Assembly: GCA_009779755.1 (NCBI GenBank)
Contig: WRDO01000004.1
Span: forward strand, 1 to 64,000
Source of the DNA: Defluviitaleaceae bacterium
Lineage (GTDB): Bacteria; Bacillota; Clostridia; Lachnospirales; WQUN01
Length of the DNA: 64,000 nt
Reading direction: 5' to 3'
The translations under genes were made by a program, and so were the position numbers. This document shows positions 19,976 through 47,566 of this stretch, in pieces. Under the pieces are notes generated by a model. The model had not been told where the DNA came from and did no database searches. It worked only from the letters and a program-made list of their open reading frames with translations. The stretch's first letter is position 1, and every line of letters starts with the position of its first letter.

Positions 19976-19976
19976 T

Positions 19977-20423
19977 TTATTCTCCCGTTACTTCGAAATG
20001 CAGGGGAACGGTCACTTCCGCGTGTAATTTGACCGTGGCGGTATATTCGCCGATGGATTTGACCGGTTGGGGGAGTACGATCTTCTTTTTATCCACCTCG
20101 ATGTGTTTTTGGGATTGCAAGGCTTCGGCCAATTCTTTATTCGATACGGAACCGAACATCTTACCCTTGTCGCCGACCTTTACCTTTAGCGTGAGCTTGA
20201 CGTCTTTAATCCTATCCGCTATGGCTTGCGCGGCGGCGACTTCGGTTTGGTGTTTGTTCGCGATGCGTTCCCGCTGTTTTTCAAGATTATTGAGATTGGC
20301 TTTGGTGGCTTCGACCGCCAGCTTCTTGGGGAGGAGAAAGTTAACCGCATGACCATCCGCGGCGTTGATGATTTGACCCTTCTTACCTACGCCCTTAACG
20401 TCCTCCAATAAGATAACCTTCAT
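19977..20423 (-). CDS. rplI: 50S ribosomal protein L9
   Basis: 148 residues from ATG 20423 (MKVILLEDV), with AAAGGAGC upstream; the frame opens earlier but that part is not L9. The N-terminal domain [16 protein letters not shown] and the long linker helix are clear. L9 binds 23S rRNA and stabilises the L1 stalk side. Confidence 0.97.
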
Positions 20424-20452
20424 GGGATTCGCTCCTTTCGGATTAGGACGCG

Positions 20453-20461
20453 AGTATAACA
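20453..20461 (-). promoter_or_regulatory. Extended -10 promoter of rplI-dnaB
   Basis: TGTTATACT on the minus strand, 30 bp before the rplI ATG; -35 weak (GTGTTG at 17 bp). Confidence 0.5.
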
Positions 20462-20523
20462 TATATTCCTTTCTTCAACACGTACAAAAAACGGGGTTGT
20501 CTAGCCTGTTCTGAAAATAATTT

Positions 20524-21726
20524 TTAATCCCATATTATTAAACCATTGTCTAATCTAACGATACTGTCAAATCTTCCGTTTTGAAGAATATCATCGCGTA
20601 AACTTGCACGCATATACAGAAATTCACCGGCAACATATACATAACCGACCGATTCAGAGAGGGGTTCGCCGCCGCCTTTTAATACCATTTCCCCTTGGCT
20701 GTTAAATTCAAATAAATCAGGATTAAAATTTCCTTCATTCATTTGTTTATACGTGACCCCAATCAAATTGCCGTCCCTGTCAAAAAATTCGTTCAACGCT
20801 TCATACAATGTCACAATATCGCCTGTTTCCACAGATAAACGATTGATAACGTGGTATGGTCCGTTTTCGTTTTCGCTGATACCCATATAATAAAGATAGC
20901 CGTCTGTGTAATTGAAGAAGTCGCCGCCCTTCAAAATTACGCCTTTGTTGCCGCCGTCCAAGTCCATGCGGCGAAATTCTCCTTCATTGTACGCCCAATA
21001 ATATAAACCGCTGTCGTCAACAGACACATTTGCAACAAATGTATCATCAAGGATTGTTTCTTCTCCTGTTTCAATATTATATACGCCGAGCTGACCCGCA
21101 CCAAGAAAAATCATACCCTTGTAATAATACATAAGTGACGCTTCCGAAAAAAGCAAAGTCATATTACTGCCATCAAGGTCTGCGCGGTATATATGAGAAG
21201 CGTTTGTTTCGTCGCGTTTATCAAAATAAATGCTGCTTTCCGCAACATACAGACTGCCGCAATATCCGTCAACAAGTTTTGTTTCTTCCGTGCCATCGGT
21301 ACGGATTCTATAAATCGGATTAAACTCCGGATAATCAAGGAAATAAACCCAACCGTCAAGGACGTTTATATTATGCCCTACGCGGTCACTTATTTTTGAT
21401 TTATCCGTACCGTCCGGCTTGGCTCTATACAGCTTCCAACCGTCACTTTGGCTTCGATAATAAATATATCCGTCGCCACCGTCACATAAAAGACCACCGG
21501 CGCTGATATTTCCGCCGGAAAATCCGAGTTGTTCTACCTGTTCAATCGGTGGTTTTGTGGTGTCCTCAACCGGATTAATAATGTCTTCAGCCGGATTATT
21601 TGTATCTTCAATTAAATTAATGGTGTCTTCGACCGGATTAATGGTACCTTCAACCGGATTTTTTCCACACCCAACAATCACAATGCAGAGTAACACAGCT
21701 AATAAAAATACAAAAAATCTCTTCAT
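20524..21726 (-). CDS. Lipoprotein with DUF5050-type beta propeller
   Basis: 400 residues. Lipobox IVIVGC at the end of a hydrophobic signal. Then a 7-residue linker repeat (~22-58) and a propeller whose blades repeat the pattern G-x-I-Y-Y-R...D-G-T-x-x-x-K-L (for example YIYYRSQSDGWKLYRAKPDGTDKSKI), as in DUF5050 proteins. It should be anchored outside the membrane. It has its own promoter and appears richer in A and T than its neighbours, which may mean later arrival. Function unknown. Confidence 0.85.
   Translation of the reverse strand: MKRFFVFLLAVLLCIVIVGCGKNPVEGTINPVEDTINLIEDTNNPAEDIINPVEDTTKPPIEQVEQLGFSGGNISAGGLLCDGGDGYIYYRSQSDGWKLYRAKPDGTDKSKISDRVGHNINVLDGWVYFLDYPEFNPIYRIRTDGTEETKLVDGYCGSLYVAESSIYFDKRDETNASHIYRADLDGSNMTLLFSEASLMYYYKGMIFLGAGQLGVYNIETGEETILDDTFVANVSVDDSGLYYWAYNEGEFRRMDLDGGNKGVILKGGDFFNYTDGYLYYMGISENENGPYHVINRLSVETGDIVTLYEALNEFFDRDGNLIGVTYKQMNEGNFNPDLFEFNSQGEMVLKGGGEPLSESVGYVYVAGEFLYMRASLRDDILQNGRFDSIVRLDNGLIIWD
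21549..21662 (-). repeat. Five 21-bp tandem repeats coding the lipoprotein linker
   Basis: Five imperfect units of NPVEDTI (NPVEGTI, NPVEDTI, NLIEDTN, NPAEDII, NPVEDTT) directly follow the lipid-bearing cysteine. They form a spacer between membrane and propeller. Confidence 0.85.
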
Positions 21727-21777
21727 TTTAATAACGCTCCTAAGTTCCTAAGATACAACAAATATTTGAATATACAT

Positions 21778-21806
21778 ATTATTCTAAAACATGTCTCGAC
21801 TTTCAA
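21778..21806 (-). promoter_or_regulatory. Candidate promoter of the propeller lipoprotein
   Basis: TTGAAA (21801-21806), 17 bp, AATAAT (21778-21783) on the minus strand. Confidence 0.45.
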
Positions 21807-21878
21807 TGTGTAATATTTGGAAATGCGGTATGGGGTGGAACGAACGCATCTTTGTCGGAATATGTCCGCAAGTTTTAA

Positions 21879-21907
21879 TTGCCCATTATTTTCCAGTATG
21901 CTATATT
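21879..21907 (+). promoter_or_regulatory. Sigma-A promoter of the noc/parB gene
   Basis: TTGCCC (21879-21884), 17 bp, TATATT (21902-21907), 42 bp before the ATG. Confidence 0.6.
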
Positions 21908-21948
21908 TCCATAAAATAACAAATCAACGGAAAGTGAGGGAACATACT

Positions 21949-22758
21949 ATGTCAAACAACGAAATATTGCATCTTTCGCTGGACGAGGTTAGGCCCAATC
22001 CTTATCAACCGCGGCGTTTTTTCGACCCGGCACGGTTGGAGGAACTGGCCGCATCCATACGCGCTTACGGGGTGCTGCAGCCCATCAGCGTACGTCAAAT
22101 CGCGGACGGGTATGAACTGATAGCCGGTGAACGCCGCTTGCGCGCCTGCCGCCTTGCGGGGCACGCGATTATCCCCGCCATCGTGGTGGATATGGGCGAA
22201 ATGGATTCCGCCGTGTTGGCGATGATCGAAAACCTTCAACGGCAGGACCTCCATTTCTTCGAGGAAGCGGAAGGGTTCGCCAACCTTATGGCCGATTACG
22301 GCTTCACGCAGGAAGCCCTCGCCGTACGCGTAGGCAAGACGCAATCCACCGTCGCCAACAAGATACGTATACTTAAACTTTCCGATAACATCCGCGAACG
22401 GATCGTGGAAAGCGGGCTGACCGAACGCCACGCACGGGCGTTATTAAAACTTAAAAACGAAGCCGACCAATCGGAAGCGCTCCAAAGAATCGTCAACCGT
22501 GAGCTTAACGTCCGCAAAACCGAGGACCTCATCGAGACGATGCTGGACGATAATGCCAAAACAGGGCGCAATACTATTTTCGTCCCTTTTATCCGTGACA
22601 TCCGTATCCTGACGAATTCAATAAAAGAAAGCCTCGAAACGGTGCGCCACTCGGGTATCGATTCGAAGTTCGACATGGAGCAAACCGAAACGGGCTGTGA
22701 AATACGCATTACCTTGGATTACGAAAAAAAGGGCTTAAAACGAGCGATGGGGCAATAA
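21949..22758 (+). CDS. ParB/Noc-family DNA-binding CTPase
   Basis: 269 residues from ATG 21949 (GAGGG upstream); the longer frame from 21817 covers the promoter. It has NPYQPRR, the CTP-binding motif GERRLRA, AMIENLQRQDLHFFEEAEG, a helix-turn-helix (TQEALAVRVGKTQSTVANKIRIL) and the GLTERHARALL segment. The protein loads on a 16-bp parS or NBS site and slides as a CTP clamp. No parA is next to it, so nucleoid occlusion (Noc) is as likely as segregation. Confidence 0.9.
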   Translation: MSNNEILHLSLDEVRPNPYQPRRFFDPARLEELAASIRAYGVLQPISVRQIADGYELIAGERRLRACRLAGHAIIPAIVVDMGEMDSAVLAMIENLQRQDLHFFEEAEGFANLMADYGFTQEALAVRVGKTQSTVANKIRILKLSDNIRERIVESGLTERHARALLKLKNEADQSEALQRIVNRELNVRKTEDLIETMLDDNAKTGRNTIFVPFIRDIRILTNSIKESLETVRHSGIDSKFDMEQTETGCEIRITLDYEKKGLKRAMGQ

Positions 22759-22759
22759 C

Positions 22760-23580
22760 CTACGCTATACCCAACACCGCTAAACGCTCCTTAAGAAATT
22801 CCGCCGCTAATTTGATATCCGCCTCGGGCGTGTCGCCGCATTCGCGTTCGATCGTAAGGAAGCCGTCAAACCCGATTTCATGCAGCGCCTTCAAGTATCC
22901 GTCCCATTTAACGCCGCCTTGCCCTAACGGAAGCTCCTGCCATTTCAACGGATTCGCCGAGACTTGGATACCGTCCTTCGCATGGGTATGCACGATGTAG
23001 TTACGCAAAGTGAATACGCCCGCTACGGGGTCGTCGTTTTTTACCATTACCAAGTTGGCGGGGTCGTAATTGACGCGTACGCCCAAAGCACCCAAGCTGT
23101 CAAGGAATTCCCCTAAAACGACGGCGGTTTCGGGCCCCGTTTCCACGGCGAAGTACGACCCGATGGAATCGGCGTACAACGCCAGCTCACGGCAGGCTTC
23201 GCGCATGATTTTTTTGGTTTCGTTTTCCTCGACGGGGACGGTCCCGATATGGGTGGTTACGATGTTGCATTCCAACCTTTTCGCCAAGTCGAGGATGCGT
23301 TTGGATTCCTCGATGAGGATGGGGTTGGTTTCACGGTTTTCAAAGCCGTGGCTTATGGCGTCGGGTGAGGAGATAAGGTCCCGCAAATGGCCGAAAACAC
23401 CATACCGTGGGATTTAACCCTGTCCAGCCATTCCTTGACGGTGGCGTCGGTCATATTTTTCGGAGCGAGCTCCCCCGATACCGCGTAGGCTTGGATACCT
23501 TCGCAGCCCAATGACGCCGCACGTTTTACCGCTTCCTTTAAGTCAATCGCAAAACTTTCCAACATACAGCCGATTTTCAT
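22760..23580 (-). pseudogene. Frameshifted TIM-barrel sugar-phosphate isomerase/epimerase
   Basis: Two frames together make one AP-endonuclease-2-fold protein of about 272 residues. The N-terminal part runs from ATG 23580 (MKIGCMLESFAIDLKEAVKR) to FSAICG, then goes out of frame; the rest (DLISSPDAISHGF... to 22760) continues one frame over. The break is at the short C-run 23380-23382: one extra base there would restore the gene. Metal-binding residues remain in VETGPE, NYDPANL, VHTHAKDG and TIERE. It is either a real frameshift or a base-calling error. The intact gene at 51007-51816 belongs to the same family. Confidence 0.8.
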
Positions 23581-23641
23581 TAAGTGCCTCCCGCGTTTTT
23601 TTGCATACTAACACGCGAATACCCTATAAACAATAGATTTG

Positions 23642-23654
23642 TGTGATATACTCG
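23642..23654 (+). promoter_or_regulatory. Possible extended -10 promoter of the DUF4097-type gene
   Basis: TGATATACT lies near 23645-23653, about 40 bp before the ATG at 23691. No clear -35. Confidence 0.3.
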
Positions 23655-23690
23655 TATATATAAATAAATGCACGAGAGGAAGAAAATTCG

Positions 23691-24965
23691 ATGCAAAATG
23701 AAAAATTGATGATCCTTAAAATGTTGGAGGACGGAAAAATTACCGCAACGGAGGCTTCAAGGTTATTGCAATCGGTGGACGCGGGTATTTCCCCTTCCGC
23801 ACCCCATCCCCTACCCCCGCCACCGCCGCGTATCCCGTCCGCTCCTTACGATTCACGCGATCGCGACCCGCGCCAGAACAGCCCTTCGGGTACCCGACCC
23901 GCTCCCCGTGCGGGGAGCACGCTCGACGATTTGGGCAAGCGGTTCGAAAGTTTCGCCAAGGATATGGAACCCAAGCTCCAAAAATTTACCGAAGTCGTGG
24001 CGGAAAAGATCACCGCCGGGGCGGATATGCTGTCCAAGGCGTTTACGGGTGACCCGCATCCCCCGTCACACAGCCACCACGGTACGTCGGGTGGCTACCA
24101 TACGCATACCTCCCAACAAACCCATACATCAAGACCCGCGTCCGCCCCGCCGTCGGTAACCGCACCCGGCGGCATGACGGAAAGGAACATCGAGATAGGC
24201 GTTGCCCCGGGTTTTAACGAATTGGCCCTTTCGGGTATCAACGGCGATCTGCGTATCAAGGGTTATAACGGCGATAAGATAACGGCCCGCATTTCCTACA
24301 GGGCAAAGCGAGCCGGAGCGGAGATCGACCTGATGAAATTAGGCAACAAGTATCAACTAAAATATGAGCCGGAGGATTTCGAACGTGTGGTTATCGACGC
24401 TTACGTGCCTGAGCGTGCCTTCAGCGTAATCAAATTGGACGGCGTCAATACGCACATGGATATATCCTCCCTTTCGGCCAACGACTTGCGTGTGTCCAAC
24501 GCCAACGGCAACCTGCGCCTTTCCGGTATATCGGCGACGAATATCACCGCAGAAAGCAGCGCGGGGCGGTTTATCGTCTCCAACATCGTCGCCGACTCCG
24601 CTTCGTTCGAAAACGTGACCGGTACCGTCGAAGCGGACGAACTCGACATCGCTAAGCTCGCCCTCACCAATTACAACGGGCCGCTGTCCCTGCTTATGTC
24701 CACCTTCGCGCGGCATTCCGATTATTTGTGGAGCATCGAGACCGGCAACGCCAAGCTCAACATAAACCTCCCCACCCTGCCCGACCTGGGTTACCACATC
24801 AAGGCGCACGCCGCCATGGGTGAGATTCGGCTCGGCTTGACGGGCTTACAATTCCTCATCAACGACCCCACGCTGGCGGAAGCGCGCTCCACCCATTTCG
24901 ACCACGCACCCAAAAAGGTAAAGATGGCGGTGGAAACTTCAAACGCGCCGCTGGTAATCAATTAA
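23691..24965 (+). CDS. DUF4097-type beta-repeat protein with YvlB-like N-terminus
   Basis: 424 residues. The N-terminal 30 (KLMILKMLEDGKITATEASRLLQSVD) are the short helical domain found at the front of YvlB/LiaX-like proteins. A proline- and histidine-rich linker follows (~35-165), then a repeated beta region with G-I-N-G-D-L-R, D-L-R-V-S-N-A-N-G-N-L-R-L-S-G, typical of DUF4097/adhesin-like right-handed helices. No signal peptide. In other Bacillota such proteins belong to cell-envelope stress responses. Ribosome site GAGAGGAAG. Confidence 0.8.
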   Translation: MQNEKLMILKMLEDGKITATEASRLLQSVDAGISPSAPHPLPPPPPRIPSAPYDSRDRDPRQNSPSGTRPAPRAGSTLDDLGKRFESFAKDMEPKLQKFTEVVAEKITAGADMLSKAFTGDPHPPSHSHHGTSGGYHTHTSQQTHTSRPASAPPSVTAPGGMTERNIEIGVAPGFNELALSGINGDLRIKGYNGDKITARISYRAKRAGAEIDLMKLGNKYQLKYEPEDFERVVIDAYVPERAFSVIKLDGVNTHMDISSLSANDLRVSNANGNLRLSGISATNITAESSAGRFIVSNIVADSASFENVTGTVEADELDIAKLALTNYNGPLSLLMSTFARHSDYLWSIETGNAKLNINLPTLPDLGYHIKAHAAMGEIRLGLTGLQFLINDPTLAEARSTHFDHAPKKVKMAVETSNAPLVIN

Positions 24966-24979
24966 CAGCATAAAAAACC

Positions 24980-25016
24980 AAGGCACTCCGACGTATTTTA
25001 CGGAGTGCCTTTTTTA
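24980..25016. terminator. Bidirectional intrinsic terminator
   Basis: AAGGCACTCCG, 10-base loop, CGGAGTGCCTT, followed by T-runs on both strands. It closes the DUF4097-type gene from the left and the spoIVA fragment from the right. Confidence 0.92.
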
Positions 25017-25030: not shown

Positions 25031-25285
25031 CTACAGCATGATGCAGATTAACCCACCCGAGCCTTCGTTGATGATTTTTTGCAACGTTTCTTGGAATTTC
25101 ATTTGCGCTGTCTCAGGCATTCTAAACAACTTGTTTTGCAAGCCATCCCGCACCATGTCGTGCATAGACTTGCCAAACATATTCAATTCCCAAATACGCG
25201 CAGGGTCCTCGCCCATCTCCTCGTTGATGTAAGCGATCAAATCCTTCGATTGCGTTTCCGAACCGACGAGTGGGGATATTTCGGT
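25031..25285 (-). pseudogene. spoIVA: 3' part of spoIVA (last ~84 codons) cut off from its 5' part
   Basis: The codons after the recombination junction encode the end of SpoIVA through its own stop and are followed by a terminator. SpoIVA is a coat-basement ATPase of about 490 residues needed for spores; its conserved last strand region is intact here. The front ~400 codons are not in this window on either strand. If the element leaves in the mother cell, the gene can be rebuilt; otherwise it is dead. Confidence 0.88.
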
Positions 25286-26974
25286 TTGACTATACATTAT
25301 GAAATGCTCTGCCACATCACGCTTGGCGAAGGTTGCGATGGTGCATGGTATGGTGTTGCCCAACTTCATTTCGATTTGGATTTTCATTTCCGTTTTTTTG
25401 CTGCCTTGGAGAATTGTGACGGATTCCAACATCGCTTGTGCCACATGGAGTGTGGGGGATATTTCGTCTATATCTTCATGCGAAAGTGCAGGGGGCATAT
25501 CTTCCGCCGATAAAGTGGCAAAAAAATCTTTAACTTTTGACTGTTTTGCGGCTGTTGTGCTGACGGTTTTCTTTTCTTCTTTAAGTCGGGCAATTTCCAT
25601 GTTGCATTTTTCTGTTTCTGCTTTTAAACGATTGTTTTTTTCAAGATATTCAGTTTTGTCTATTTCATTTTCAGTATATAACTCTAACAACAAGTTTTGC
25701 TTGTTCTTTATTTTTTGAATCGCAGTTACTATTTTTGCGATTTCACTTGCATAATCAAACGCATCACGGCTGTCGGCTTTTTCGTACATGGCCAACAATT
25801 CGTCCACGCTTGCCGTATATATTTCCCTGTTGGATAACAAATCGTTGCCGATATGTTCCAATACAGCATCTAAGTCGCAGGTATATAAATGAGGGGTAGC
25901 ACAAGCCACCCTACCCTTTGCAAGATACTCCTTGCAACACCAACTTTCCGCAGGAATTTTACGGTCTTTCCACACTTTGCGGTAATGATGAGTGCCGTGT
26001 TCTTCACAAACAATTTTACCGCTGTACGGCGTTTGAGGAACGGTGCCGCGCCCCTTGCTTGCAAATTTTGATGTACGTACAGCTAAAATGGTATTAGCCC
26101 GTTCCCACAAATCTTCGGACACAATAGCGGGGATTTCTTCCGATTTATATAGGATTCTGTCTTCAAGAGCAGTCTTGACCTTCTTCTGCTCACGGTAGTC
26201 GTTGCTCTCTGTAATATGGCCGTGGTAGTAACCTTTGTACTTTGGGTTGGATAAAATACCTTTTAAACAACCCGGGTTAATTTCGCTGCCCGATTGGTTG
26301 CGGTAACCTTTTTCATGTAAGACACGTGCCAGCGTTCGGAAACCATACTTGTCCTGTGCATACAATCCATACAAGTCACGAATAAACTTTGCTTCATTTT
26401 CATCAATAACAAGTTTTCCCTTAGATTTTTTATATCCGTACATATTATCCTGCCCAAGCACCTTTCCCGCTTTATGTGCTTGTTTCATTCCGAACTTTAC
26501 ACGTTCGGAAAGACGACGAAGCTCGTCCTGCGCCAAAGAAGCCATAATCGTAAGCCGCAGTTCCGAATCAGAATACAGCGTACATATATTATCCGCTTGG
26601 AAAAACACACCTACATTGCTTGCAAGTAACCGGCGTGTGTATTGAATGCTATCCAGCGTATCACGCGCAAAGCGGCTGATTTCCTTAGTTATTAATAAAT
26701 CAAATTTGCTCAATTCGCCATCGGCAACCATACGTTTAAAATCGTCACGCTTTTTCACGCTTGCACCAGATAATCCTTCATCCACATAACCGCCTACAAA
26801 AGTCCAATTCACTGTTGACTTTATGAATTCATCAAAATATGCAATTTGATTATCCAAAGAGTTCAACTGCACATCAGAATCAGACGACACACGGGCATAA
26901 TACGCCACACGAAGGGGCAAATCATATATGGACTTGCCTTGTCCGAGCAGTTTTCGCATTTTTATTAATTCCAT
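25031..26974 (-). CDS. Large serine recombinase fused in frame to SpoIVA C-terminus
   Basis: 647 residues. Residues 1-~175 are a resolvase domain with the nucleophile in YYARVSSDS and later LLITKEISRFARDT. Then a recombinase domain (KAGKVLGQDNMYGYKK...), a zinc ribbon (VCEEHG, WCCKE, ACATP) and a coiled coil (~440-510). From about residue 564 (TEISPLVG) to the end (IINEGSGGLICIML) it is the C-terminus of SpoIVA, the spore-coat ATPase: QSKDL, DPARIW, MFGKS, EGL-like RDGLQNKL, RMPE and QETL all align with Bacillus SpoIVA. This is what one end of an element inserted in spoIVA looks like. Confidence 0.92.
   Translation of the reverse strand: MELIKMRKLLGQGKSIYDLPLRVAYYARVSSDSDVQLNSLDNQIAYFDEFIKSTVNWTFVGGYVDEGLSGASVKKRDDFKRMVADGELSKFDLLITKEISRFARDTLDSIQYTRRLLASNVGVFFQADNICTLYSDSELRLTIMASLAQDELRRLSERVKFGMKQAHKAGKVLGQDNMYGYKKSKGKLVIDENEAKFIRDLYGLYAQDKYGFRTLARVLHEKGYRNQSGSEINPGCLKGILSNPKYKGYYHGHITESNDYREQKKVKTALEDRILYKSEEIPAIVSEDLWERANTILAVRTSKFASKGRGTVPQTPYSGKIVCEEHGTHHYRKVWKDRKIPAESWCCKEYLAKGRVACATPHLYTCDLDAVLEHIGNDLLSNREIYTASVDELLAMYEKADSRDAFDYASEIAKIVTAIQKIKNKQNLLLELYTENEIDKTEYLEKNNRLKAETEKCNMEIARLKEEKKTVSTTAAKQSKVKDFFATLSAEDMPPALSHEDIDEISPTLHVAQAMLESVTILQGSKKTEMKIQIEMKLGNTIPCTIATFAKRDVAEHFIMYSQTEISPLVGSETQSKDLIAYINEEMGEDPARIWELNMFGKSMHDMVRDGLQNKLFRMPETAQMKFQETLQKIINEGSGGLICIML
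25262..25300. other. Probable recombination junction (att site) within spoIVA
   Basis: The change from recombinase-type to SpoIVA-type protein falls at codons S-Q|T-E-I-S near 25285. In intact SpoIVA proteins a V-Q/E-T/S-E motif stands here, so the shared core may be around CAAACCGAAATATCC (minus strand, about 25274-25288). Exact limits cannot be set from one end. Confidence 0.55.
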
Positions 26975-26983
26975 AATTCACAC

Positions 26984-27187
26984 CTACCTCCCGTCAAAAT
27001 TGTAGCGCGCTTCGGCTACTTTGTCAGGTGCGAAGCAGGATATTTTTTTATGTATCTCATCCCGTGCAAATTCGTACATTGCTTTTGTAATCAGCTTTGC
27101 CGCATAGGCTTTTTCATTAGCGTACTGTTGCCAATGTGCAAAAACGAGGTCGTTTGTTTCGCACGAAGGTATGGTAATTTTAACCAT
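26984..27187 (-). CDS. Small protein next to the recombinase (SHOCT-like)
   Basis: 67 residues from ATG 27187, with AGAGGTGG upstream; the frame could start at 27229 but that has no good site. It ends nine bases before the recombinase ATG, so both share a transcript. The middle, NEKAYAAKLITKAMYEFARDEIHKKI, has the short two-helix look of SHOCT-type motifs. Other elements keep a small directionality factor near the recombinase; this gene is a candidate for that by position only. Confidence 0.65.
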   Translation of the reverse strand: MVKITIPSCETNDLVFAHWQQYANEKAYAAKLITKAMYEFARDEIHKKISCFAPDKVAEARYNFDGR

Positions 27188-27332
27188 AGTACCACCTCTG
27201 AATATGTTTATGCTTGGCTCATTTTTCATAGCACCAATGGTTTTGTCGCTTTTTAGTATGAATCATCTCCTTTGCTTAACGCCCGCTGTTACCAACGGTC
27301 ACGCTTGCCCGTTTAGATTTTTTAGGCAATAA

Positions 27333-27374
27333 AAAACCACCTTTCATAGCGATTTTTCGCTGAGCGGTGGTTTT
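27333..27374 (-). terminator. Terminator or attenuator hairpin before the recombinase operon
   Basis: AAAACCACC and GGTGGTTTT arms with an inner AGCGA/TCGCT stem. On the minus strand six T follow, so it should stop leftward transcripts coming from the HipA-like operon or from a promoter near 27495. Confidence 0.75.
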
Positions 27375-27509
27375 GTTGTTTCTTTGAATTTAAACTGCAT
27401 ACAGTGTTTGTGGGTGTCCTTGGTTTTTGTAAACGGTTGGCTCGCCTGCCAATCTTCCACAAATACATTCTAACACGGTAAAAACGAGAAAAATTATAAT
27501 GTTTCGGGC

Positions 27510-27540
27510 AAAACTTAGAATATCTTAGGTAAAACTTAGA
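27510..27540. repeat. Helically phased CTTAG iterons
   Basis: AAAACTTAGA occurs at 27510-27519 and 27531-27540, exactly 21 bp apart; a third CTTAG lies between them (27524-27528). Spacing of 10 and 11 bp puts all three on one face of the helix, as in protein-binding iterons. Confidence 0.6.
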
Positions 27541-27649
27541 AAATTTGATTATAAAAATATATAATACAAATTATAAGTTTATAATCGTCTGTCTATGTTA
27601 TATAAATATAAATTTTTGTTTACCATGTTTTCTATATCAATAAAAATCT

Positions 27650-28282
27650 TTACTTATTTAATTCATAAAGCAGATTCCCACGAATTTTTCCAAATACATC
27701 ACTTGCGACCGAAACTAAATCTTCAAACGTAAATCCTTCCTCAAGTTCTACATGATGATGTACTTTTATATGCTCCACAATAACACGCCGAATCTCAATA
27801 TTTATATTTCTTGTCGGTTCGTTAACTCCTCCCCAATCGTGGTACGGAGATAGATGGATAAATGCGCATCCAATATCATAAATCGGGGTTGCCCAATCCA
27901 AAAGCAACTGCCCCGTCAAGTATTGAACCATTGTACGGTCAGAAATTAAATCTTTTTCACCACGCCATCTCTGTCCTTTCATAAATTGTTGTAATAACTG
28001 TTTTTTTATTGGTTCACTTTGAACCTTGAAATAGCAAAGTCGAAACAACGAATCCAACTCCATGCGAATTATAGACCCAACGAGTGAATAGATGCGTTCA
28101 TTTAGCAACCATTGAAGTGCTTTTTCATTTTCGTCAGAACGCTTCTTTATAGCTTCATAAAACGATTTTGTCATGTTCATATACCCTACTCCACCACCAA
28201 ATAAAGATGAATCTTTTATTCCAACCAATTTCGCAACTTGTTTCCATTTCGCTTCATTGCTTTCTTTATATGTATCGTTCAC
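27650..28282 (-). CDS. Hypothetical protein downstream of HipA-like gene
   Basis: 210 residues from GTG 28282, 21 bases after the HipA-like stop. Mostly helical, with MTKSFYEAIKKRSDENEKALQWLLNERIYSLVGSIIRMELDSLFRLCYF and a conserved-looking FIHLSPYHDW. It vaguely recalls helical proteins of the DUF5677/Abi type, but I cannot place it. The operon with a HipA-like kinase suggests a defence or toxin-related role (inference). Confidence 0.7.
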   Translation of the reverse strand: MNDTYKESNEAKWKQVAKLVGIKDSSLFGGGVGYMNMTKSFYEAIKKRSDENEKALQWLLNERIYSLVGSIIRMELDSLFRLCYFKVQSEPIKKQLLQQFMKGQRWRGEKDLISDRTMVQYLTGQLLLDWATPIYDIGCAFIHLSPYHDWGGVNEPTRNINIEIRRVIVEHIKVHHHVELEEGFTFEDLVSVASDVFGKIRGNLLYELNK

Positions 28283-28303
28283 AAGGCCCTATTTCACGCA
28301 TTC

Positions 28304-29359
28304 TTATTTTAACAATTCCTTGATTCGTGCTTGAAATTCCACAAATCGTTCTTTTGGAATATATTTTTTTATTTCACCGAAATCCACATTATTTATTTTA
28401 TTTACAATATCATCATGATTCTTGATAAACCGCTTTGACCAATCATCAAGCGTTAGTAGTGAGCTTCTCCCTTTTGTTGCGTGGCTAACACCCATAAAAT
28501 GTTCGTTGAACGCAATATTGTGGTCGTAGCATGGCGCAAGGGATATAAATTCAAAGGTCTTTGCATCGTACAACACGCCTGTGTTCTCATCGTGCATATC
28601 GGGGTTGCCAATTAGATAATTAAAAATGTACATACGCTCGATTTGTTCGGTTATATCTTTTCTACCCATTTTTACAAATTCATTATAAATCTCGTCGTCG
28701 GTATCAAAATACCGTTTCAATTCTGCCGCATGAACAAGTGATACTTCATCATTAGTAAACAATTCGATATTCACAAAATCGCCATCCAGTTCACATTTTG
28801 CAACAGATATACCGATTTGCTTACCGAACAAGTACGCAGGGTATTCCAACACTGCATCTTCACGCAATTTCACAAGATTTTTACCTATTATAGCTTTGGT
28901 AAAAAAGCCTTTTGTGGTAAATAAAGAGGTATGCCCTTTGAGCAATTCAACGGGATTGTCCATTTTGCCTGTAAGAGCATAAAGGCTTAATTCACGGCTT
29001 TTATCACGCAATGAATTTAATTCACTCCATGTATGATTCGTGTCCGATGTTTTAATCCAAAAGTTGTCCGTAAACGAAATCCCCGAACTGTCTTTTATCA
29101 TTTTATCACGGTCACGCCCGACTTTTCGCGCGATATACACCATATTCATATAGGTACGCTGTGCGTTGTCAATGCGGTTTGTTATCCATTCAAAGGCATC
29201 AACAGGACGGATGGGGTTAAGGTTCCTGAATGCAAAGGGCAGATATTTTGATTCATAAACCGTAACCGTATCTGCTTTTCTATCAAATAACACCACAGGC
29301 GTTTCTTCATACATTATGGTATATTTCGATACTTTTCCGTTGCCGTTATTTTCTACCAT
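28304..29359 (-). CDS. HipA-like kinase-fold protein
   Basis: 351 residues, ribosome site AAGGAGAG. The C-terminal half has IFNYLIGNPDMHDENTG (the N-x-D-x-H-x-x-N catalytic loop of HipA) and LAPCYDHN (metal-binding Asp), and ends in a helical bundle. The N-terminal part is unlike HipA of E. coli and no HipB-type repressor gene is adjacent. HipA proteins phosphorylate targets such as Glu-tRNA synthetase and cause growth arrest. Here it is probably cargo of the mobile element. Confidence 0.75.
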   Translation of the reverse strand: MVENNGNGKVSKYTIMYEETPVVLFDRKADTVTVYESKYLPFAFRNLNPIRPVDAFEWITNRIDNAQRTYMNMVYIARKVGRDRDKMIKDSSGISFTDNFWIKTSDTNHTWSELNSLRDKSRELSLYALTGKMDNPVELLKGHTSLFTTKGFFTKAIIGKNLVKLREDAVLEYPAYLFGKQIGISVAKCELDGDFVNIELFTNDEVSLVHAAELKRYFDTDDEIYNEFVKMGRKDITEQIERMYIFNYLIGNPDMHDENTGVLYDAKTFEFISLAPCYDHNIAFNEHFMGVSHATKGRSSLLTLDDWSKRFIKNHDDIVNKINNVDFGEIKKYIPKERFVEFQARIKELLK

Positions 29360-29398
29360 TGGCGTACTCTCCTTATTTTCATATCATCAACAATGCGC

Positions 29399-29703
29399 TT
29401 ATACCCTATAATACATTTGACTTTTGCTTTTTGGCTTATTTGGGTTTGTCATTTTAACAAGACCAAGATTTAACATGGGCTTAATTACTGTAGAGCGAAA
29501 ATGTTCATCGGATTTTATACCGCAAAAATCTTTCTGTTCCAATTTTCCGCGAAGATGCGGTCTTTTTCAATAATGATTCGTGCCATATATCCTCGGCTAT
29601 ATTCCCTATGAACAAGAACATTGCTCACAAGTTCACGCGCAATCCATGAACACACACTAACACGTTGATTATCCACAAGGAAGAATCGGTTTAAAATAAT
29701 TTT
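29399..29703 (-). pseudogene. Remnant of an AlbA/AAA_4-type putative regulator
   Basis: Two reading frames on the minus strand give parts of one known protein type (COG2865). The first reads WIARELVSNVLVHREYSRGYMARIIIEKDRIFAENWNR; after a frameshift near 29518 comes KSDEHFRSTVIKPMLNLGLVKMTNPNKPKSKSQMYY, a winged-helix end. The front of the gene is missing and the piece ends against the fucosidase stop. So the gene was truncated where the recombinase module meets the glycan locus. Confidence 0.75.
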
Positions 29704-29706: not shown

Positions 29707-31026
29707 TCATACAACCCGAAAACCCAGCGGGAAATGGTCGGGTGTAATATTTTTGAAGGATACCGCCAAATCCTGATCTTGCGCGGCAAAACTTAATTTT
29801 TTCCCATCCATGGATTGCATGGAATCGGCTTTACCACCCAACCCCTTAACGATTATTGTACTGTCCCCGGCGGGAACGTTGTCTAAAAAGACAAATAACG
29901 CTTTTTCTTTTTTCGTAAAATATATATCAACACCATTTTCTGTTTTTTCGTGTTGACGTTCATAGGGGCGCGTACCGTAGATTCCATCCCCGTGTGCGTC
30001 TAACCATTCCCCCAGGGCGAGCAATCGGCTTTCTTGCTCCTTTGGTATCGTTCCGTCCGCCTTCGGGCCAATGTTGATGAGCAGGTTCCCGTTTTTTGCT
30101 ACCGTATCTAATAATAATGAAACCAATTTATGATGGGAAAGCAAATGTGTTTCGTTTTCCTGAGCGTTGTAGCCAAAGGAAAGTCCTATGCCCCGCGTAT
30201 TTTCCCACTTATTTTTATAATCGCTTTCCCCGGCTTGATACTCCCTAAGGGTATAATCCTGCCACAGGCCGCTCCAGCGGTCGTTCACCAACCCCCCGGG
30301 GACGGCATTGTAATAATACGCAAACAGTTTTATCAAATCATCGCGGCCTTTTTCCGGCCATCCGATATCGTTCCATAATATATCCGGTTTAAACAGGTTT
30401 ACCAATTCCATGAATTGGTTGTAAGCATAATCGGCGTAAGCGTAGGTACAATTTTCGTGAGCGTTTGTGTCATTGTCTTTGGTTATGGGCGAATAAGTGA
30501 AGCGCCAGTCAAGCAAACCGGAATAATAAACGCCAAAGCGGATACCTTCTTCACGCACGGCCGCTGCCAGTTCGCCCACGATATCGCGTTTGGGCCCTTG
30601 CCGCATGGTGGTGTAATCCGTAAAACGGCTGTTCCACAAACAAAGTCCGTCGTGGTGTTTGGTGACGGGGACGATGTATTTTGCCCCTATTTTTTTTAAC
30701 AACGCGGCCCATGCCTTGGGGTCCCACTTTTCCGCTTTCCACATATCAAGAAAGCCTTCATACGGAAAGTCCGTGCCGTAGGTTTCCGCGTGGTGTTCAT
30801 AAGTGGGACTGCCCTTAATCCGCAGTGAGTTCATGTACCATTCGGCATAGGGGTTGTTCTTCAGCCAATCAAAACCGGCCGGCGCGCCTCCCAGTTCGTA
30901 GTTGGGCGTGGCCCAAGCCGGGACGGAATACATCCCCCAATGAATAAAAATACCGAGTTTCGCGTCTTCAAACCACGCAGGCACAGTATGCTTTGAAATG
31001 GATTCCAACGTCGTTTTATAATACAT
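29707..31026 (-). CDS. GH29 alpha-L-fucosidase
   Basis: 439 residues from ATG 31026; ATG 31032 sits directly on the GGAGG and is less likely. Family motifs: KLGIFIHWGMYSVPAW, KYIVPVTKHHDGLCLW, RDIVGELA, GVYYSGLLDW and ILWNDIGWP with the nucleophile Asp. NGNLLINIGPKADGTIP is also typical. No signal peptide, so it acts inside the cell and releases L-fucose from imported oligosaccharides. Overlaps the upstream GH38 gene by 11 bases. Confidence 0.93.
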   Translation of the reverse strand: MYYKTTLESISKHTVPAWFEDAKLGIFIHWGMYSVPAWATPNYELGGAPAGFDWLKNNPYAEWYMNSLRIKGSPTYEHHAETYGTDFPYEGFLDMWKAEKWDPKAWAALLKKIGAKYIVPVTKHHDGLCLWNSRFTDYTTMRQGPKRDIVGELAAAVREEGIRFGVYYSGLLDWRFTYSPITKDNDTNAHENCTYAYADYAYNQFMELVNLFKPDILWNDIGWPEKGRDDLIKLFAYYYNAVPGGLVNDRWSGLWQDYTLREYQAGESDYKNKWENTRGIGLSFGYNAQENETHLLSHHKLVSLLLDTVAKNGNLLINIGPKADGTIPKEQESRLLALGEWLDAHGDGIYGTRPYERQHEKTENGVDIYFTKKEKALFVFLDNVPAGDSTIIVKGLGGKADSMQSMDGKKLSFAAQDQDLAVSFKNITPDHFPLGFRVV

Positions 31027-33502
31027 ATTCATCCTCCATCATCCCAACCATTTTACAATCGGTTGCCGTTATACGATATGTGCCTACTTCAAAGGCATTT
31101 AACGTTACTTGCTGTGTTACGTTAAGGGGTGAACATCGGATTACACATACGGCGGTTTTTTCCGCGTGGTTAAAAAGCCGCAATATATATCCGTTGCCGT
31201 CTTCCGCCATTTTCAATGCGGTAGCTTCAACGGATGGGTCTCCCGAAATTTCCATCGCGTTGGTAACGGGCGTTATGTCGCCCTTGGGAGAAAACGATAA
31301 GCAATACGGCGGTTGGTTTAACAAAACCGCGTCTGACAGGGTTTTATCCCGTAAACAATCCATAACATTACCCGTTATCCGAAAGCCGTATACCCGTTCG
31401 CCTTGGTCGATATAAGGCGAAAAACGGTCTTGCGGCATGGTTTCCCTTCCCTCCATTTGCAGCGCCGTGTATGCGGGGGAACGCAGCAAAGTCAGGTATA
31501 ATATGCCGTTCATCCAAGAAGAGCCATATATGCCGCTGTTTGCGACGGAAAACCCTTTTTCGCTGTTTTCAACCGATATATACCTTTGGGAAACGTTTTC
31601 ACGGCCGTTGTCGGGCATAACCTCCCGCCCGAAAGCGACTTCCCCGCTGCACACAGCATTGCTGAAAACCGTTGGGAGTTTAAGTTTTAACATTTTTTTC
31701 TTTTCCGCGTTTTGCAAACGTACCTCCACATCAAAGGTTGTACCTTCCTTCGGCAGCAGGTACCGCATCACGGCAAATGAATGGTTGCAACCGAAAACGG
31801 ATTCTACAACGGTTCGAACGTCACCGTCCTCGATAACCCGCACGGAGGGAATGTATTCATTATCAATTCCCGAAAAAGCGGAGCCATTTTCGGGCGATAA
31901 CAACGTAAAGACACCGACTTGTTTACGCGTTTCAATCGAGCTCATGCCCCAAGGGTCCTCCGTATCCGTAAACACGCCGATTTCAAAGGCGTTTTCCTTC
32001 CATAATGAACTTCCGTCAACAACAAACCGATCGACCCAACCCGTTTGTGCGTTTATCGCCAATTCCATCCACCCGTTATTAAAAATAAGGAAACCGTCCG
32101 TTTCTTTTAGTTTTACTTTTGGTTTTTCGGGCAGCGTTTCCAATTTGCATGAAAAGAAACCTACGGAGGCGGGGGAAAGGGAAGCGCGAAAAATTACCCG
32201 CTTGCGCCATTGGAAGGGAGCATGGCTTGATTCCTTTTCTATTTGGGTAGGAAGGGCGCGGCCGTTATGGTACACCGTTGCGTTTACAAAAACCGGGTCA
32301 AGGTTAAAATCCGGCAAATTAAATTCGCAGCTTATTATACCTTCAACCGTACGGGGATGTGGGTTGTATACGATTATGGGAATTTCGTTCTTCGCTACAG
32401 GGGGTAAACATTCCGCCAGTTTATAAAAAGCCCGCGTACGTACGCGGGATAAAATTTCCAACCCGTGATACATCCCCCGAATCGCACTTTCCTCTACAGC
32501 CTCTATTGAAGTACCCGGCAAGGTATCATGAAATTGCGCGGTCATCATATCAACCAAAACGTCATCCAGTTCTTGTTTCGGGTAATCCATTCCCAACAAA
32601 TGGGCATGGACGCACATCTTTTCCGTCATAAAGAAATTATTTTCCAAGCGGCGATACAATTGCTTTATTTTGATTTGGCTGGTGTAGCATCCCGGAAAAC
32701 GCGGATTCAAATCGCCCCGATGTTCGGGCAAGCCCCCTTTTTCTTTTAATTCCTTGAAATATTGTTCCAACGTGGAATGGACGATAACGTCTCCTTTGGC
32801 GGCGGCTTCCGCCATCAGGGTTTTTATGTTTTCCAAATCAATGCGAGATGGTCCGCCCCCATGGTTGCCTACCCCCCATAAACATATGCCCAAGCCGTTG
32901 TCCGGCGTATCGTTCCAAACCTCGTTTATTTTACGGGTTGCGTTACCCAACTGCGAATTGTATCCGTTTAACACACGCCGTGCCATGATTTTACTGCCGT
33001 CATAACCTACCCAAATAAATGCCTCCGCAGGAAGCGGGCAAGCCGCCGGGTCATCGGGACGCCAGCATATATAACTATCGTAACCGGATTTTGACAGGAT
33101 TTGCACCAACCCGCGGGAATGGCCGAATGAATCGAAGTTCATGGCTGTGGTAGGGATAACGCCGAAATGTTCTTTAAAATATTTCCTGCCGAACAATGCC
33201 TGCCGTATAAACGCTTCACCGCAAGGCATGTTGCAATCGGGTTGGTTAAACCAACCACCCATGATATGCCACCTCCCTTCAGCCACCAACCGCTGGATTT
33301 TACAAAACAGCGTCGGCTCGTATTCGGAAACCCACCGATACAACTGCGCTTCGTTGTGACAGAAGACATAGCCTTCATATTCCTCGCAAAAAATCGCCGC
33401 TTGCCGGTAAGTGGAAATCGCTTCGGCAGCCCCTTCCTCCCATTCCCATTGCCAAACCGGGTCGATATGGGCATTCGAAATTAAATGAATTTTTTTATTC
33501 AT
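31016..33502 (-). CDS. GH38 alpha-mannosidase-like enzyme (828 aa)
   Basis: 828 residues. HLISNAHIDPVWQW carries the zinc His and Asp; MNFDSFGHSRGL has the nucleophile Asp; HDTLPGTSIEAVEES is the late zinc region. A long beta-rich C-terminal part follows. GH38 enzymes cut alpha-mannosides; this shorter type may be an exo-enzyme with broad linkage range. No signal peptide. First gene of a leftward operon with the fucosidase, from a promoter that shares an operator with the opposite URO-D-like gene. Confidence 0.9.
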   Translation of the reverse strand: MNKKIHLISNAHIDPVWQWEWEEGAAEAISTYRQAAIFCEEYEGYVFCHNEAQLYRWVSEYEPTLFCKIQRLVAEGRWHIMGGWFNQPDCNMPCGEAFIRQALFGRKYFKEHFGVIPTTAMNFDSFGHSRGLVQILSKSGYDSYICWRPDDPAACPLPAEAFIWVGYDGSKIMARRVLNGYNSQLGNATRKINEVWNDTPDNGLGICLWGVGNHGGGPSRIDLENIKTLMAEAAAKGDVIVHSTLEQYFKELKEKGGLPEHRGDLNPRFPGCYTSQIKIKQLYRRLENNFFMTEKMCVHAHLLGMDYPKQELDDVLVDMMTAQFHDTLPGTSIEAVEESAIRGMYHGLEILSRVRTRAFYKLAECLPPVAKNEIPIIVYNPHPRTVEGIISCEFNLPDFNLDPVFVNATVYHNGRALPTQIEKESSHAPFQWRKRVIFRASLSPASVGFFSCKLETLPEKPKVKLKETDGFLIFNNGWMELAINAQTGWVDRFVVDGSSLWKENAFEIGVFTDTEDPWGMSSIETRKQVGVFTLLSPENGSAFSGIDNEYIPSVRVIEDGDVRTVVESVFGCNHSFAVMRYLLPKEGTTFDVEVRLQNAEKKKMLKLKLPTVFSNAVCSGEVAFGREVMPDNGRENVSQRYISVENSEKGFSVANSGIYGSSWMNGILYLTLLRSPAYTALQMEGRETMPQDRFSPYIDQGERVYGFRITGNVMDCLRDKTLSDAVLLNQPPYCLSFSPKGDITPVTNAMEISGDPSVEATALKMAEDGNGYILRLFNHAEKTAVCVIRCSPLNVTQQVTLNAFEVGTYRITATDCKMVGMMEDEYVL

Positions 33503-33522
33503 CGTAATCCCCCGTCATTATT

Positions 33523-33550
33523 TTGTAATGCAATTGTAATATGATACAAT
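33523..33550 (+). promoter_or_regulatory. Candidate promoter of the URO-D-like gene
   Basis: TTGTAA (33523-33528), 16 bp, TACAAT (33545-33550). Confidence 0.5.
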
Positions 33551-33551
33551 T
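33532..33551. promoter_or_regulatory. Palindromic operator between divergent glycan genes
   Basis: AATTGTA and TACAATT form a perfect 7-bp inverted repeat with a 6-bp centre. It covers both opposed -10 boxes, so a dimeric regulator bound here would block both genes. Confidence 0.65.
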
Positions 33552-33561
33552 AAACAGGCAA
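33533..33561 (-). promoter_or_regulatory. Candidate promoter of the GH38-fucosidase operon
   Basis: TTGCCT (33556-33561), 17 bp, TACAAT (33533-33538) on the minus strand. Confidence 0.55.
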
Positions 33562-33590
33562 GTAATACCAATTATGAAGGGGAAAAAACA

Positions 33591-34559
33591 GTGACGAATC
33601 GGGAGCACTTTAAAACAATATTGGAACGACGGAGCGACCGTTGCGGTTTTTGGCACGGAATGCCCCACGAAGAAAGCAAAACGGCCCTATATTCCTATTT
33701 TAACGTTAAGAATAACGAAGAATTGGGTCAAAAATTGAACGATACCTTTGATTGGATATGCGTTGATTTATATAAAGATGCCTTTGACCTAAGCCAAGGC
33801 AGCGCTTTCATACATTGCGAGGATGCCAAAGAAGTCGAACGCTTCCCTTGGCCGGACATTAAATATTGTTGTTTCGACGGCGCGGAGAAGGCCGTAAATG
33901 CGTCCCTTGCCCGCGGGAAAGCAATACTTTCCGGTTCATGGGGACATTTTTTTCATATCTTAGCGGGTTACTTCGGTATGGAGAATTATTTTATTAAAAT
34001 GCATACCGACCCTGATGTGGTGTTGGCAGTTACGGAACATGTGGCAAACTTTTTCTTGCAAGTAAATGAACGATGGTTCGATATAATAGGCGACCGTATG
34101 GATGCTCTCTTTTTTGGAAACGACTTCGGCAGCCAATTGGATTTATTAATATCTCCTCAAATGTTTGATAAGTTCGTAATGCCGTACTTTCGGCGGTTTA
34201 CCCAACAAGCAAAAAACCGCGGGTACAAAGTGGTTTTGCATTCATGCGGCGCAATCGACAAAGTAATCCCCCGTTTGATTGATGCCGGGGTTGACGCTTT
34301 GCACCCCATCCAAGCCAAAGCACGCGGTATGGACGCCGAAAGCCTTGCAAAAAAATACAACGGGAAAATCGTTTTTATCGGCGGCGTTGACACGCAGGAA
34401 TTGCTACCTTTCAAGTCACCCCTCGAAGTACGTGAGGAGGTGAAGCGGATAAAGGATTTATTCGGCCCCAATTTTATCGTTTCACCCAGCCATGAGGCGC
34501 TGTTACCCAATGTACCGCCGGAAAATATTGAGGCTATGGCGGATGAGGCGTTTAAATAA
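33591..34559 (+). CDS. Uroporphyrinogen decarboxylase-superfamily protein
   Basis: 322 residues from GTG 33591 (AAGGGG upstream). The C-terminal half is clear URO-D fold: VVLHSCGAIDKVIPRLIDAGVDALHPIQ, KIVFIGGVDTQELL, and the end SPSHEALLPNVPPENIEAM. H-S-C matches the H-x-C of zinc methyltransferases (MtaA group), but the matching later cysteine is not seen. Such proteins are common in sugar loci of Clostridia and are not heme enzymes there. Real reaction unknown. Its stop is one base from the convergent GH38 stop. Confidence 0.85.
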   Translation: MTNREHFKTILERRSDRCGFWHGMPHEESKTALYSYFNVKNNEELGQKLNDTFDWICVDLYKDAFDLSQGSAFIHCEDAKEVERFPWPDIKYCCFDGAEKAVNASLARGKAILSGSWGHFFHILAGYFGMENYFIKMHTDPDVVLAVTEHVANFFLQVNERWFDIIGDRMDALFFGNDFGSQLDLLISPQMFDKFVMPYFRRFTQQAKNRGYKVVLHSCGAIDKVIPRLIDAGVDALHPIQAKARGMDAESLAKKYNGKIVFIGGVDTQELLPFKSPLEVREEVKRIKDLFGPNFIVSPSHEALLPNVPPENIEAMADEAFK

Positions 34560-34560
34560 A

Positions 34561-37500
34561 CTACACTACCCTAACCGTCACGATTTCATAGGGGGACAAC
34601 GTTAATGTTATTTTCTTTCCGTCATATTCGACGGGTTTTATTGGGGACTCCATCATGTCGGTAATCTCCGCGCGGCTGCCGGAAATATCGGTAGTTATAT
34701 CTGTTGTCACGCTTCCGCCGTATGCGTCATAAGCACGCAAAATACATCCTTCACCGTCTTCGGCTTCCTTAACGGCTTCAATAATAATGCCGTCCTTTTC
34801 GGTTTCAAACCACGAATGGGCGAACTTGCCGTTCTGCGATTCTTCCGATAACGGAATGGCCGCCAAAGGTGCGTTCACACCATACCCGGCTTCCATGACT
34901 TTACCCTCGCGCCAATCCCCGCCGTGGGGATATAGGCTGTAACGGAAGTTATGGCTCCCCCTGTCGCTGACGGGATCGGGATAAACGGGTGCTTTCAAAA
35001 GGGTTAAGCGTATCACATTGTCGCGGACATCGCAGCCGTATTTACAATCGTTAAGCAAAGCAACGCCAAAGCCAAACTCCGAAAGGTCGGCCCATTTGTG
35101 GGCGCATACCTCAAATTTTGCCCTGTCCCAAGAAGTGGAACGGTGGGTGGAACGGGAAATTGTGCCGAAGGGGATATCATACGTAGCATTACGCGCCCGT
35201 ACGGAAACCGGGAAGGATACCTTCAACAATTTTTCACATTCACGCCATTCCACTTGGGTGTCAAAATCTATTCGATGGATATCGTTGTAAAAAATGATAT
35301 GCTGTGTGATTTCGGAGTCCAGCACGCTTTGGCGGCATTTGACAACGGTGCGTGATGCGTTTTGCTCCACCGTTTCCAAGCTGATGAGCTTACAAGCGTG
35401 GGTGTATTCGTAATCCTCGTAGGAGCTGATGATATCCCAAGCGGAATATTTACCGGGCCTGTCCTCAAATATTTGGAAGCGGTTGGCTGCGCCCCCGGTT
35501 ATGATTTCACGGCCATACACTTTATCGTAAAGGGATGAAATATTTCCGTTTACGTCAAATTGAACACGGAAATGGTTGGTTTCTATAAAGGGAAGCGAAT
35601 TTGAAGCGGCACTGGCAGTTTCCGGAACAGTTTGATTCATAACGGCTTCTGTTTCGATGGGTTTTATTTCATATACTTTATAACCCATCGGCGGCACATC
35701 CACGGCGGCGAAGCACACCTTCGTCACCCCGTTTTCCACGGAACATACGGTGTGCAATATTTCACCGTCCTTTTTATCCACTGCGGATACATGGGAATGG
35801 GGCGTCGGAAGCGTCACTTCCACCCAATCCGTTCTGGCGAAGGAAAGGGTATTAAAAACCGCGAACAAATCCTTGCCGCCGGGAAGTGACTGGACGATAA
35901 CGGACAAGCATTCCGTTTTAACACCATTGATAATTGCAAACATTTCATCGTAAAGCGCAATGGCATCACCCGCCGCTTCCGTGACATGGGATCCGGGGAG
36001 GATATCGTGGAATTGGTTTACCATCAGGTTTTTCCAAGCAAGGTCAAGCCGTTCTTTCATTGACGCGCCGCCCAAGGATTTTGCCACGACAGAATAAAAT
36101 TCGGCATCCCGCAAACCAAATTCTCCTTGGCGGTTGGCTTTTTTTATTTGCCCTTTGGTTGTATAGGTGCCGCGGTGGGTTTCCAAATACAATTCATCCT
36201 GCCATACGGGCAAACCTTGTGATTTTGTTTCCAGCCTTTCAAAGAAGCGCGTCAGCGTGTCGAACTCCAATTCGGGTAAACCGGGCAAACCGCGAAGGCG
36301 GGTCATTCTGGCAACCATGTCACGGGTCGCGCCGCCGCCGCCATCGGCTAAGCCAAATTGGTAAAAGCCTTCGCCCGTGAGGGTGCGTTGTTTATTTTTA
36401 TCCCATGCCTCCCATATTTTTTTAGGCTCGGCGGAAGAAACGAAATGGGTACCGGGGAAATAAGTAAGTACACGGGAGCCATCCGGCCCTTCCCACCAAA
36501 ATTGGCTGTAAGGGAATTCGTTGGTGTCGTTCCAAATGGATAATTTAATCGTGGACATATATTTAACGCCCGATTTAACCAAAAGCTGCGGAATCGTCCA
36601 CATACACCCAAATACATCGGGTACCCAGCAGATTTGCGGGTCAATACCGAATTCTTGTTGATAGTATTTCTTACCCCACATGATTTGACGGATAACCGAT
36701 TCCCCCGAAATCAAATTGCAATCGGGCTCTACATAAAACGCGCCTACCGGTTCCCAAGAGCCTTCTTTGATCTTCTTCTTCACCGCGTCATAAGCCACAG
36801 GAAATTGTATCCGCAAATCTTCGTATAATTTTCCCTGGCTTTGGGAAAAAATAAACTCCGGAAATTCATCTATGTTGCGTACCATATTCATGGCGGTGCG
36901 CGGGTTTTTACGGACATACTCCTTGTAAGGCCACAAATATACCAAGTCAAGGTGGGATTGGCCGATAAGGGCGAGTTTGCCCGGTCGTTTAAATTCGGTG
37001 TTTGTGTAAATTTTTTCCTTGATATAGGCCACCGCCGCCGGAACACCGGACTTGAAGCCTTCAAAATCCTTCGCGGCATAATTAACCAATTTTAGCGCGG
37101 CTTGTAAATTATCCAAAATAAAAGATTTGTATTCTTCGTCTTCGGAAGCGTTTGCCACGTCATAAAGAGCCCAACAGTAATAATACAAATCCTCGATGGT
37201 CTTATCGATTTGGATGATTTCCGCTTTTTGGAAAACATGATGCACCCGAATGTCTTGACGGAAGGCGTCATAAGGGGCGTTCCTGACGGAAACCTCCAAT
37301 GCGATGTCCAATTGTTCGCCGGGTTTAAAATATCTGTCCAAATTAGCGATTTTCCTGTCAAAGTCTACGCCTTGGTGGGGTGTGCCGTTTATACACAGCA
37401 AGCCTTCGCCACCGAAGTCCAGTTCGATAAACACCTGCGCTTCCTCCAGGGGTTCCGGCATAAACGCGGTGCTTTTAAACATACCTGTCATTTCCGGCCC

Positions 37501-37728: not shown

Positions 37729-37754
37729 GACGGTCTCCTTTTATATGGGATTGC

Positions 37755-38192: not shown

Positions 38193-38223
38193 ACTTTCCC
38201 TCCTAATTATTACAAACGTGTAA

Positions 38224-38245: not shown

Positions 38246-38258
38246 ATGGAATAATAGA

Positions 38259-41251: not shown

Positions 41252-41267
41252 ATAAACGAGGTTGACT

Positions 41268-47562: not shown

Positions 47563-47566
47563 GCAT

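Follow-up and report, generated by a model that had tools for sequence, protein, structure and literature searches.

SpoIVA is the protein that starts spore-coat assembly and drives its first step. In the genome of an uncultured Defluviitaleaceae bacterium (GCA_009779755.1; 3.10 Mb in 91 contigs; G000 below), the gene of a large serine recombinase (LSR) reads in frame into the end of spoIVA. This arrangement raises the question of where the rest of spoIVA lies and whether an uninterrupted gene can be regained from its parts. The stretch of DNA analysed, called the window here, comprises positions 1-64000 of contig C4 (WRDO01000004.1). Two elements, termed A and B, interrupt the gene and extend past this 64-kb window; the corresponding elements of other genomes are called A-type or B-type by their insertion site within spoIVA.

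Pieces of spoIVA and ends of the elements

The features of the locus are as follows.

17523-24965: downstream flank of spoIVA, in synteny with the G004 locus, where the gene is intact (same order, 80-93% protein identity)
24971-25010, minus strand: intrinsic terminator 3' of the spoIVA stop, read from the sequence as a perfect 10-bp inverted repeat (hairpin) with a T run
25031-25285, minus strand: 3' piece of spoIVA with SpoIVA_C domain and natural stop (PF20439, TIGR02836, junction DNA), beginning at the A core ACCGAA (25285-25280)
25280-25285, minus strand: attR core of element A, ACCGA(R), common to both ends of A elements and holding the symmetry centre; predicted central dinucleotide GA at 25282-25281
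25286-26974, minus strand: LSR of element A as an in-frame fusion to spoIVA (Resolvase, Recombinase and zinc-ribbon domains; alignment of fused homologues)
26984-27229, minus strand: small ORF just upstream of LSR A, candidate directionality factor, conserved in A elements and with SHOCT-like relatives in B elements
about C4:25283-76534 (51.3 kb; window part 25283-64000): element A, from att sites and gene content
C4:76555-78204: LSR of element B, adjoining the middle piece of spoIVA
about C4:76560-114650 (38.1 kb): element B, from att sites

The 647-aa ORF at 25031-26974 (minus strand) begins with serine recombinase domains (Pfam Resolvase, residues 24-171, E 6e-28; Recombinase, residues 192-298, E 1e-15) and continues in frame into a complete SpoIVA_C domain. 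Residues 572-647 cover the whole Pfam model PF20439 (E 9e-34), and the C-terminal end matches positions 401-492 of the 492 positions of TIGR02836. A sequence-only reading of this locus had proposed such a fusion, followed by the natural spoIVA stop and a terminator, and these features were confirmed, with the stop at 25031-25033 and the 10-bp hairpin and T run at 25010-24971. The search that it suggested for the first ~400 codons of spoIVA was also successful. The N piece (first ~406 codons) is located at C4:114649-115872, 89 kb from the C piece; its break falls on an attachment site, and rejoining keeps the frame. The sole SpoIVA ATPase match found in G000 by profile search (C4:115141-115857, minus strand) belongs to this piece and lies in a 420-aa ORF that ends early. 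N and C pieces share one contig and one strand and stand in the correct order and orientation. Profile searches yielded one SpoIVA_C match and one SpoIVA ATPase match and no intact spoIVA in G000, so that neither of the outcomes named as contrary to the sequence-only reading (an intact spoIVA elsewhere, or no SpoIVA match in the last 84 residues) was found.

Because the N junction resembled that of a B-type relative (G054) and the C junction that of an A-type relative (G014), a middle piece was predicted, and a six-frame search of the contig then found it: ten codons (HLIKADIETE) at C4:76532-76561 (minus strand), with a B-type arm before and an A-type arm after. Joining the three pieces at the cores produced a SpoIVA of 499 aa in which neither joint has an indel compared with intact homologues, and SIHLIKADIETEISPLVG, which spans both joints, is identical in the intact protein of G004. 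The earlier proposal of a skin-like element that splits spoIVA thus stood as regards the split and its restorability, but not as regards one element: two are present in tandem, totalling 89 kb, at sites ~24 bp (eight codons) apart in the uninterrupted gene. The extent first given, 25031-29703, was too small, as A reaches C4:76.53 kb and B reaches C4:114.65 kb, and confinement to that interval is ruled out by the middle piece. We likewise rejected a single 89-kb element, since the N and C junctions have no common core in the right frame and a middle piece is present. Joining N and C pieces directly at the candidate cores ATAAT or TCAAAC would either delete two codons or shift the frame of SpoIVA.

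The core is ACCGA in element A and lies around CAT in element B. In both, the LSR gene adjoins the C-proximal end and has a small partner ORF on its upstream side. In A and B elements alike, the two attP arms form an imperfect inverted repeat, whose symmetry centre, scored against shuffled controls, fell inside the shared core in 10/10 elements: on the GA of ACCGA(G) in 6/6 A elements and on the CA of the CAT core in 4/4 B elements. Taken individually, the symmetry was significant against shuffles in eight of the ten, the exceptions being the A elements of G000 (p=0.07) and G069 (p=0.18).

An empty site was found in G004, a genome of the same genus whose SpoIVA N part is 96% identical. Its spoIVA is intact and adjoins both G000 flanks, namely the downstream flank listed above and, on the other side, orthologues of the genes from C4:115963 onward. 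The locus of G000 shows these features of a skin-like element: a mother-cell gene interrupted without an intact copy, an LSR beside the att site, a shared core with exact restoration of the frame, and an empty site. Directly upstream of the intact spoIVA of G005 (L045:11478-18327) lies a 62-84% identical copy of the sugar transport cluster of element B (C4:88805-95734). About 100 bp after the intact spoIVA of G019 there is a B-type LSR (L062:11108-12133) that is 78% identical over its N-terminal 305 residues and cut off beyond them, an apparent relic.

Recurrence and fate of the split gene

Within the family, spoIVA is split in at least six genomes (G000, G002, G013, G014, G035, G036). In G061, a candidate B-type split, the contig ends at the spoIVA break. 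Scanning a genome collection with the A LSR (>=60% identity) revealed five loci in metagenome-assembled genomes (MAGs), three of Defluviitaleaceae and two of Oscillospiraceae. All five are in-frame fusions to SpoIVA at the same codons, which makes 7/7 with G000 and G002. The MAG isolate names of these A-type loci match a series that we take to be from termite guts. Compact elements of 7-20 kb occupy the G000 sites in relatives. That of G014 (8.2 kb) has ends that share ACCGAG and an LSR fused to SpoIVA as in G000; that of G054 (6.9 kb) has ends that share TATACATAT, is inserted eight codons upstream of the A site, and its LSR is unfused.

Rejoining was exact and in frame in 9/9 split N/C pairs (G000; A type in G002, G014, G035, G069 and G394; B type in G036, G054 and G169), with no stop or frameshift in any piece. 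An assembly chimera, i.e. unrelated DNA joined in contig C4, might be suspected, since the G000 assembly has 91 contigs and those of its named relatives are MAGs. We consider this extremely improbable, because independent assemblies repeatedly show the exact cores, the symmetrical arms and the in-frame rejoining, and the N and C parts of spoIVA are on one contig each in G014, G035, G069 and G054 as well.

The LSRs of G000 and G069 are 82.7% identical and sisters in the tree (100/99), with SpoIVA proteins 69.1% identical, whereas for G000 and G014 the LSRs are 70.7% and the SpoIVA proteins 78.7% identical. The disagreement of the LSR tree with the host tree, and LSRs of G000 and G069 that are closer than their SpoIVA proteins, indicate that the element moves, and the elements do so between families. 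A viral origin was considered and rejected: a scan of viral contigs gave LSRs of at most 42% identity, none with SpoIVA sequence.

B-type LSRs located in spoIVA or next to it form a moderately supported group. They cannot be regarded as exclusively spoIVA-specific, since a neighbouring sister clade at 55-58% identity (L121-L125) is located elsewhere; several of its members have a SHOCT-like partner ORF upstream. In G169 (C165, L113) the B-type LSR adjoins the N piece and is convergent with it, and in G000 it adjoins the C piece. A more distant member of the A clade, in G015 (L110:834-2480), is not in spoIVA; this LSR keeps a ..YSETEI.. motif where the others cross into SpoIVA, and other integrase genes surround it.

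A further sporulation gene of G000 is interrupted. In sigK, a ~7.4-kb element with its own LSR (C3:37976-39625) is inserted ~15 codons before the end of the gene (C3:37963-45971; L118, L119). The sigK ends share TTATGT, and rejoining gives RSYVSRIEKKAL, so that this gene is restorable too. The LSR elements seen in G000 thus target mother-cell genes, spoIVA twice and sigK once.

These observations bear on the idea that the insertions are dead, i.e. that the lineage no longer sporulates and A and B are never excised. Loss of sporulation is conceivable in this family: a SpoIVA N part was present in 29/38 genomes and missing in 9/38. The named relatives of G000 are MAGs, and no isolate is known to sporulate. 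We nevertheless regard dead insertions as very improbable. Pieces free of stops and frameshifts in nine split genes argue against them, as do full-length sigE, sigF and sigG in G000, a sigK split in the same restorable way, and full-length recombinases in both elements. The dN/dS of the SpoIVA N part between G000 and G004 is low (0.03) and points the same way, although the insertions may postdate that divergence.

Cargo of the elements

Element A carries genes for a HipA-like protein, glycoside hydrolases, sugar ABC transporters and pyruvate formate-lyase-like proteins, and element B a 2-oxo acid dehydrogenase operon with lipoate genes. Together the two elements of G000 hold GH38, GH10 and GH101-like genes, sugar ABC transporters and a pyruvate formate-lyase-like pair. 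Among the cargo scanned, part of the ORFs (20 cargo ORFs against Pfam; ten proteins against PHROGs, namely recombinase B and nine cargo ORFs, of which one was among those 20), no phage structural or lysis genes were recognised, the matches being integrase and generic ones only. In relatives, Gabija pairs occur in the elements or their neighbourhoods (G014, G069), as do a type II methyltransferase and restriction genes of types III and I. GajA/GajB pairs lie within A elements of two families (L041, L057), where spoIVA elements take the form of defence islands. The 51-kb and 38-kb cargo of G000 and the Gabija and restriction systems of relatives suggest that the site may offer metabolic and defence islands a protected place.

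Part of the 89 kb may be host chromosome trapped between att sites by a rearrangement rather than imported DNA. This variant would be compatible with two excisable elements; we consider it possible but on the doubtful side. Two genes of element B (78445-81431) have orthologues ~6 kb beyond spoIVA in G004, and G001 and G003 have the dehydrogenase operon of B at another place, as would be expected of trapped host DNA. On the other hand, the A cargo at 29707-49700 matched four congeneric genomes only weakly and over short stretches, and the elements at the same sites in relatives are compact.

Proposed excision, the fused recombinase and known systems

We conclude that A and B are very likely two independent skin-like elements in tandem in spoIVA, excised in the mother cell to restore the gene. 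The gene pieces, cores, attP arms, in-frame rejoining, empty site and recurrence are observed; from this anatomy and by analogy with known elements, we infer that excision is developmental. In the mother cell, during sporulation, the LSRs would act on attL and attR together with a directionality factor, which might be the small SHOCT-like protein. Recombination of these sites would release A and B as circles and make spoIVA whole again ahead of the construction of the coat basement layer. In the forespore, the interrupted gene would be retained, so that the elements are inherited, and the separate LSR element would do likewise for sigK. Since coat assembly begins with SpoIVA, reconstitution of its gene would have to come early, at an earlier stage than sigK-dependent genes would require. 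If this is true, three excisions per spore would be required (two in spoIVA, one in sigK), and we know of no mother cell that is more dependent on rearrangement. As the mother cell does not survive, elements of this kind may face little constraint on their growth. The tandem pair means that two LSRs independently chose neighbouring sites within the same few codons, so that it can be tested by comparison why such elements favour mother-cell genes.

Alternatively, excision may be unregulated, with spoIVA a harmless harbour from which the elements are lost at random, so that only cells without both sporulate, or with a stress trigger. SP-beta and skinCd are known to have constitutive recombinases (PMC5595907), and a scan for sigma-E-like promoters upstream of the LSRs gave nothing above shuffles. 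Such a scheme is improbable, however, as both independent elements would have to leave, and two LSR targets in spoIVA and one in sigK fit mother-cell control better.

Known intervening elements need a directionality factor (PMC5025042, PMC5595907). The small ORF that precedes the LSR in A and B elements has a conserved N..IT..MY..A pattern and a weak similarity to SHOCT; from its position and conservation, we guess that it may be this factor.

The attP of element A lies inside its LSR gene, and the integrated protein consequently ends in 84 SpoIVA residues; the circle form is predicted to end in a tail encoded by the attL arm (TEV..YKMKV..). The frame is open in 7/7 A-type LSRs at spoIVA, despite in-frame linker differences of tens of residues. 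Tentatively, element A might thus act as an integration-state switch that swaps the C-terminal tail of its own LSR for the 84-residue SpoIVA C-terminal domain, with the fused form, made only when integrated, specialised for mother-cell excision or controlled by SpoIVA interactions, and the unfused form of the circle for integration. We think this rather unlikely, and as the arm is also likely recombinase-binding DNA, its conservation alone is no proof of a role in the protein.

Interrupted sporulation genes described in the literature are sigK, spsM, spoVFB, spoVR, gerE and yabG (PMC6957869, PMC10747680). The sequence-only reading took spoIVA for an undescribed target, and in agreement with this, no report of it as an interrupted gene was found in the open-licence journal literature; it may have been reported elsewhere. 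Like A and B, skin in sigK of Bacillus subtilis and Clostridioides difficile is a serine-recombinase element that splits a mother-cell gene, which precise excision rejoins (PMC5025042). In contrast to skin, A and B target spoIVA, a sigma-E-class structural gene, they form a tandem pair, no phage genes were recognised in their scanned cargo, and LSR A is fused to the host gene. The gin element in gerE of Bacillus cereus ATCC10987 is likewise a non-phage intervening element with a serine recombinase; it has a separate directionality factor, a 9-bp core and an imperfect inverted-repeat attachment site (PMC5595907). A and B differ from it in the gene interrupted; they are two elements of independent specificity, separated by eight codons, and each has an LSR of its own at its att site. 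SP-beta in spsM, vfbin in spoVFB and yin in yabG also interrupt sporulation genes and excise (PMC4191935, PMC10747680), but they are prophages or prophage-like and single, and spoIVA is not among the targets listed in that literature.

Outside sporulation, the best NCBIfam match of LSR A is CcrC of the staphylococcal SCC (CcrA/B/C), which are also non-phage cassettes that can be stacked at one site. LSR A scores 125 bits against a Ccr cut-off of 900, however, and its target is spoIVA, restorably disrupted, rather than rlmH; element A is thus not an SCC. The nearest analogue of LSR A is the integration-dependent immunity of mycobacteriophage BPs, in which attP lies in a phage gene and integration alters the C-terminus of the protein (PMC4557955). 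Whereas the BPs repressor is shortened, LSR A itself would gain an 84-residue host domain. Compared with these systems, spoIVA as target, two independent tandem elements in one gene, replacement of the LSR C-terminus by a SpoIVA domain on integration, and non-phage cargo (sugar metabolism in G000, anti-phage defence in relatives) are new.
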